DNA from: Trypanosoma brucei gambiense DAL972
Taxonomy: Eukaryota; Euglenozoa; Kinetoplastea; Trypanosomatida; Trypanosomatidae
Assembly: GCF_000210295.1 (NCBI RefSeq)
Contig: NC_026739.1
Span: 1-64,000 of the forward strand
DNA: 64,000 bases
Reading direction: 5' to 3'
The position numbers were made by a program, and so were the translations under genes. Each line of letters opens with the position of its first letter. The stretch's first letter is position 1. The notes under the pieces were generated by a model. The model did no database searches, was not told the DNA's origin, and saw nothing but the letters and a program-made list of their open reading frames with translations. Positions 30,271-31,482 of the stretch are shown piece by piece.

Positions 30271-31482
30271 ATGGAGAAACCGTCTTGCAGGGGTGCCGGT
30301 TGGGCGCAGCTTTTGTGGTGTTACGGCACCTGTTGCGCTCTACTCCTCCGCCTGATAGTTGAAGCCAGTCAAGCTGCTGAGGGTTTAAAAACCAAAGACG
30401 AAGTTGAGAAGGCGTGCCATCTTGCACAACAACTCAAAGAAGTTTCAATTACTTTGGGAGTTATTTACCGGACCACTGAACGACACTCCGTGCAAGTTGA
30501 AGCGCATAAAACAGCCATTGACAAACATGCGGATGCGGTGTCGCGAGCTGTGGAGGCGCTCACGAGGGTGGATGTGGCACTTCAGCGATTGAAAGAACTC
30601 GGGAAGGCCAATGACACGAAGGCGGTGAAAATTATCGAGAACATTACCTCCGCCAGAGAAAATCTCGCTCTCTTCAATAACGAAACGCAGGCCGTACTGA
30701 CGGCGAGGGATCATGTGCATAAGCATAGGGCCGCGGCATTGCAGGGGTGGTCTGATGCAAAAGAAAAAGGCGATGCCGCCGCAGAGGATGTTTGGGTTCT
30801 GCTTAATGCCGCAAAAAAAGGTAATGGCAGTGCAGACGTCAAGGCAGCTGCAGAGAAATGCTCGAGATATTCCTCAAGCAGTACTTCAGAAACTGAGTCG
30901 CAGAAAGCTATTGACGCCGCCGCTAACGTGGGGGGTTTGTCGGCACACAAGTCGAAATATGGCGATGTGCTGAACAAGTTTAAATTGTCTAATGCTTCAG
31001 TGGGAGCAGTGAGAGACACATCCGGCCGGGGCGGTAAGCATATGGAAAAGGTCAATAATGTGGCAAAACTTCTTAAGGATGCAGAGGTTTCTCTTGCAGC
31101 TGCAGCAGCCGAAATTGAGGAGGTTAAAAATGCACATGAAACAAAAGTACAGGAAGAGATGAAGCGCAATGGGAACCCGATCGAAAATGAATCAGAGACT
31201 AATTCAGGGGGGAATGCGGAATCACAAGGTAATGGAGATCGTGAAGATAAGAACGACGAGCAACAACAGGTCGATGAGGAGGAAACAAAGGTGGAAAATG
31301 GAAGCAGCGAGGAGGGGTCTTGTTGTGGAAACGAAAGTAACGGTCCCCATGTGATGAAAAAACGTCATGGGGTTGGGGCACCAAGGCCCGTTGACGTGGT
31401 TAGTGGTTTCCGCAGTTATGCCAGCGCTTCTTTTGCTCTGCTTTCTCTTGTCCGTGTCGGTATTCTCCAGGTGGTGGTGTAG
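30271..31482 (+). CDS. HpHbR: Haptoglobin-hemoglobin receptor, Ser210 (gambiense-type) allele
   Basis: 403 residues. The signal peptide ends near residue 35; the mature protein begins about AEGLKTKDEVEKA. An elongated three-helix bundle spans about 36-300 with the ligand-binding face near the membrane-distal end (the ITLGVIYRTTERHS helix region), then a Glu/Asn/Gly-rich C-terminal head/stalk region and a hydrophobic GPI-addition signal (SFALLSLVRVGIL). The receptor sits in the flagellar pocket and imports haptoglobin-hemoglobin for heme. In T. b. brucei it is also the entry route for trypanolytic factor 1 of human serum. Codon 210 (30898-30900) is TCG, Ser, inside SETESQKAIDA; the T. b. brucei protein has Leu here (TTG differs by one base). 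The L210S change is the known group 1 T. b. gambiense allele with greatly reduced ligand binding. The reading frame is otherwise intact. Confidence 0.97.
   Translation: MEKPSCRGAGWAQLLWCYGTCCALLLRLIVEASQAAEGLKTKDEVEKACHLAQQLKEVSITLGVIYRTTERHSVQVEAHKTAIDKHADAVSRAVEALTRVDVALQRLKELGKANDTKAVKIIENITSARENLALFNNETQAVLTARDHVHKHRAAALQGWSDAKEKGDAAAEDVWVLLNAAKKGNGSADVKAAAEKCSRYSSSSTSETESQKAIDAAANVGGLSAHKSKYGDVLNKFKLSNASVGAVRDTSGRGGKHMEKVNNVAKLLKDAEVSLAAAAAEIEEVKNAHETKVQEEMKRNGNPIENESETNSGGNAESQGNGDREDKNDEQQQVDEEETKVENGSSEEGSCCGNESNGPHVMKKRHGVGAPRPVDVVSGFRSYASASFALLSLVRVGILQVVV

Follow-up and report, generated by a model that had tools for sequence, protein, structure and literature searches.

The haptoglobin–haemoglobin receptor gene of Trypanosoma brucei gambiense DAL972 carries the group 1 allele Ser210

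The first 64,000 nucleotides of contig NC_026739.1 of the Trypanosoma brucei gambiense DAL972 assembly (GCF_000210295.1; this whole stretch is called the window below) contain the gene for the haptoglobin–haemoglobin (HpHb) receptor, HpHbR, and codon 210 of that gene is TCG, specifying the serine found in the group 1 allele. We regard it as very nearly certain that the gene found here is Tbg972.6.120, which encodes HpHbR in the reference strain for group 1 of T. b. gambiense, the sleeping-sickness parasite of West and Central Africa, and that it carries the group 1 allele. The L210S replacement is already known, having been in print for Tbg972.6.120 in 2010, surveyed among isolates in 2012 and functionally tested in 2013, and no new biology is involved. 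Published work is attributed here by PubMed Central (PMC) identifier.

The HpHbR open reading frame runs on the forward strand from an ATG at 30271 to a stop codon at 31480–31482 and comprises 403 codons; an in-frame stop lies upstream at 30178, with no in-frame ATG between it and the start. A preliminary description of the window, made from the letters alone, had named the gene HpHbR, and three kinds of match bear this out. The translation matched the complete Pfam HpHbR profile (PF20933, profile positions 1–243 of 243, E = 5e-100), which places it in the family by domain; at 334.6 bits, against a curated cut-off of 27 bits, a chance family match was rejected. A search of PDB sequences returned three distinct entries named haptoglobin-hemoglobin receptor (4wjg, 4x0j and 5hu6, E = 1.5e-156 or better), all of which we take to be from T. 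b. brucei; the receptors of T. congolense and T. vivax were not returned by this search, even at E = 10. Among about 5.8 billion proteins, with scoring applied to the 7999 candidates having the most words in common, a single relative was found at E ≤ 0.001, Tb927.6.440 of T. b. brucei TREU927, which aligns with the window protein end to end over 403 residues without gaps and is identical at 398 of them. Hydrophobic stretches are visible at both ends of the translation. PMC5268388 describes the T. congolense receptor as having a glycosylphosphatidylinositol (GPI) anchor, and PMC4383175 implies one for that of T. brucei. The assembly itself (22,148,088 bases in 11 contigs, the window being contig 6 from base 1) contains one HpHbR match, the gene described here, and a second copy blurring the codon call was rejected for these 11 contigs, outside which the unplaced contigs of PMC2854126 lie.

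The end-to-end alignment also fixes the numbering: leucine stands at position 210 of the TREU927 protein, so that residue numbers counted from the ATG are the published ones, and a wrong frame or numbering was rejected. The serine codon that the preliminary description had pointed out was read directly from the sequence, and TTG is the sole leucine codon one base away from TCG. Leucine occupies position 210 in all four other HpHbR sequences found, those of TREU927 and the three PDB entries. Over residues 36–299, 4x0j differs from the window protein at residue 210 only; 4wjg differs at residues 293 and 369–370 as well, and 5hu6 at residue 190 as well. Relative to TREU927 the window protein has Ser210 and four further replacements, the five being L210S, A293V, E369G, G370A and M398I, and exactly these are given for Tbg972.6.120 against Tb927.6.440 in the DAL972 genome paper (PMC2854126). 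Because the five differences equal the published list residue for residue (5/5), the agreement at codon 210 is not a matter of chance. No difference was found between the window gene and Tbg972.6.120, which is assigned to chromosome 6 by its name, and on this sequence comparison the two are almost certainly the same gene. Residue 293 is not diagnostic, since 4x0j carries valine there too.

A restriction site provides a second check of Ser210. The window has 1297 bases between the published primers HpHbR_F and HpHbR_R2, the length given in PMC3393672, and the single PleI site of this amplicon lies across codon 210 (Table 1). The corresponding restriction fragment length polymorphism (RFLP) has been proposed as a marker of the group 1 HpHbR allele (PMC3393672). 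PMC3789759 also describes an HpyCH4V test for this allele, on which we place no weight, since the coding sequence in the window has 12 TGCA sites of its own. Two group 1-specific polymorphisms of the 3′ untranslated region are mentioned in PMC3167774, with their positions in its supplement.

Table 1. Positions in the window of the HpHbR gene, the published amplicon and the residues that distinguish the protein from that of TREU927
Feature	Positions	Strand	Basis
HpHbR coding sequence, 403 aa and stop, published as Tbg972.6.120	30271..31482	+	Matches to Pfam PF20933, PDB and TREU927
Region bounded by published primers HpHbR_F and HpHbR_R2	30229..31565	+	Primers from PMC3393672
PleI site GAGTC, the single one in the published HpHbR amplicon, spanning codons 209–210	30895..30899	+	Sequence; RFLP from PMC3393672
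Codon 210, TCG = Ser (published L210S, PMC2854126)	30898..30900	+	Translation and TREU927 alignment
Codon 293, Val (A293V vs TREU927)	31147..31149	+	Alignment; 4x0j also Val
Codons 369–370, Gly-Ala (E369G, G370A vs TREU927)	31375..31380	+	Alignment
Codon 398, Ile (M398I vs TREU927), close to the C-terminus	31462..31464	+	Alignment

The distribution of Ser210 supports its assignment to group 1, as do the five matched replacements (PMC2854126). Symula and colleagues, using their own polymerase chain reaction (PCR) amplification and sequencing, reported Ser210 in every one of 15 group 1 isolates, with both copies carrying it, but in not one of the 52 remaining isolates (PMC3393672). Their survey of 67 comprised 32 T. 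b. brucei, 15 group 1, 5 group 2, 13 T. b. rhodesiense, 1 T. equiperdum and 1 T. evansi isolates, the figure of 52 being our sum of those outside group 1. Serine at this position is thus not common in T. b. brucei, where it was seen in 0 of the 32 isolates. Group 2 T. b. gambiense has leucine at 210 (PMC3393672, PMC3630162), so Ser210 marks T. b. gambiense group 1 and not the whole subspecies; the proposal that this one base identifies the subspecies holds for the former and fails for the latter.

Published experiments connect Ser210 to the loss of binding and uptake of human trypanolytic factor 1 (TLF-1). The receptor of T. b. brucei is reported to bind both HpHb and TLF-1 (PMC3630162). In receptor-null T. 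b. brucei carrying the group 1 receptor, TLF-1 uptake was undetectable, and among constructs reverted at 210, 293 or 369–370, wild-type binding, uptake and killing were regained by reversion at 210 only (PMC3630162). With Ser210, binding of TLF-1 to cells could no longer be detected; the group 1 receptor did give a small flow-cytometry signal, which the authors deemed background (PMC3630162). Monovalent HpHb affinity was about 20-fold lower with Ser210 (Higgins 2013, as cited in PMC4383175; also PMC3393672). Residue 210 adjoins the HpHb-binding site, and a structural disturbance by serine has been predicted (PMC5268388). The sharp reduction in HpHb and TLF-1 uptake that the preliminary description ascribed to this residue agrees with these reports.

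In the reading favoured here, HpHbR, a flagellar-pocket surface protein with a probable GPI anchor, imports HpHb as a source of haem, and human TLF-1 enters in this way too, by means of its haptoglobin-related protein in complex with haemoglobin. Within the helical bundle, residue 210 lies beside the ligand site in the half distal to the membrane, a region that serine is predicted to disturb. Since TLF-1 binding is no longer detectable in cells with Ser210, and HpHb affinity is lowered, little APOL1 enters by the HpHbR route. Ser210, low receptor mRNA and the group 1 protein TgsGP together account for the human-serum resistance of group 1.

Several observations weigh against placing too much on codon 210. 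The base is known in the window from the assembly sequence, which by itself could conceal a miscalled base or heterozygosity at this position. The in-vitro affinity of the T. b. brucei receptor, 5–10 µM, is discordant with the value of about 4 nM from the cell assay (PMC3630162). Parasites that lack TgsGP and bear Ser210 are sensitive to human serum and to APOL1 and survive TLF-1, a survival that the authors attribute to the group 1 receptor allele (PMC3789759, PMC4413828). When group 1 parasites express a functional receptor from T. b. brucei they are still fully resistant to human serum (PMC4975595), and Ser210 by itself does not explain that resistance. TgsGP is essential for it (PMC3789759), receptor mRNA is about 20-fold lower in group 1 (PMC3630162), and the receptor change is described as one of at least three parts of group 1 serum resistance (PMC4975595). 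Ser210 therefore explains the loss of TLF-1 uptake, together with lowered HpHb binding, and not human-serum resistance as a whole; “contributes”, the word chosen in the preliminary description, was apt, while its further statement that the base explains a phenotype stands for TLF-1 uptake and falls short for serum resistance, which needs TgsGP. The genome paper reports that TgsGP was not found in the DAL972 assembly and that identical sequence was present among the unassembled reads (PMC2854126), so its absence from the assembly studied here would mean nothing.

As the base depends on the assembly, Ser210 might in principle be an artefact of sequencing or assembly in a gene resembling that of T. 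b. brucei, but we consider this exceedingly improbable. Such an error is hard to reconcile with the identity between the five TREU927 differences and the list published for Tbg972.6.120, with the independent recovery of Ser210 by PCR and sequencing from all 15 group 1 isolates (PMC3393672), or with the way in which the DAL972 genome was produced, by capillary sequencing to about eight-fold coverage, with bases checked manually and 22.1 Mb of contigs ordered against TREU927 (PMC2854126). The EMBL accessions given for that genome are FN554964–FN554974.

A different question is why the allele is fixed. Ser210 could have been fixed by descent, and not by selection, in a clonal lineage that was resistant through TgsGP and low receptor expression; we think this unlikely, though less so than an error. 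The essential role of TgsGP (PMC3789759), the reduced receptor mRNA (PMC3630162) and the full human-serum resistance kept by group 1 parasites with a functional receptor (PMC4975595) all fit such a history, and group 1 is reported to be strictly asexual and derived from a single progenitor (PMC4739771), so that any variant for which this progenitor was homozygous would have been fixed. Against it, a functional receptor raises the baboon-serum sensitivity of group 1 parasites 1000-fold (PMC4975595), renders them sensitive to TLF-1 when TgsGP is missing (PMC3789759) and, according to a review, restricts their growth, with TLF-1-rich serum able to overwhelm resistance (PMC4413828). Given these effects on baboon-serum sensitivity, TLF-1 sensitivity and growth, Ser210 is not functionally neutral, whatever the cause of its fixation.

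The presence of Ser210 in both copies bears on the same history. Group 1 parasites regain TLF-1 uptake when they carry an ectopic functional receptor expressed more strongly than their own (PMC3789759), and for this reason Ser210 probably gives full protection only when both copies carry it. We tentatively suggest, as a possibility to which we give rather modest weight, that an early loss of heterozygosity over the start of chromosome 6, under selection against TLF-1 uptake, converted the second copy after the lineage had become asexual; the alternative is a progenitor already homozygous for Ser210. The main text of the population-genomic paper (PMC4739771), which covers 75 group 1 genomes, makes no mention of haptoglobin, haemoglobin, chromosome 6 or HpHbR. 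General literature searches, none of them aimed at this point alone and with supplements outside their scope, found no paper on the origin of the two-copy state.

The surroundings of the gene were surveyed by a Pfam scan. The window has 23 frames that start with ATG and reach 150 aa or more; 19 of these were scanned, the four left out being 21766–22218 (−), 29619–30071 (−), 57264–57764 (+) and 59287–60060 (+). The features seen have no bearing on the HpHbR finding. A receptor-type adenylate cyclase frame of 1245 aa at 24217–27954 (+) contains two periplasmic-binding-like domains and a catalytic domain. A shorter cyclase frame at 7763–9166 (−), possibly a truncated copy, has a catalytic domain, while its match to the binding-domain profile is below threshold and covers just the final 38 positions. 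The 279-aa frame at 38464–39303 (+) shows a partial VSG_B match (profile positions 110–212 of 352, E = 7e-12) and may be a remnant of a variant surface glycoprotein (VSG) gene or a VSG-related gene. A papain-family cysteine protease (PF00112, E = 7e-59), which we presume may be the T. brucei cathepsin B-like protease, is encoded at 47059–48081 (−), about 16 kb from the HpHbR gene. A C-type lectin domain of the IGP family (PF16825, E = 1e-72) is present in the 329-aa frame at 5211–6200 (−), the first codon of which was left out of the scan. Two overlapping frames of 618 and 970 aa at 59038–63764 (−) contain CFAP47/CFAP65/HYDIN-like Ig domains and could represent separate genes or a single flagellar gene read in two frames.

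The medical weight of the finding lies in the presence of Ser210 in every surveyed isolate of the group that causes more than 90% of reported sleeping-sickness cases (PMC3393672). A known marker of that group, correctly numbered, is recoverable from raw sequence.
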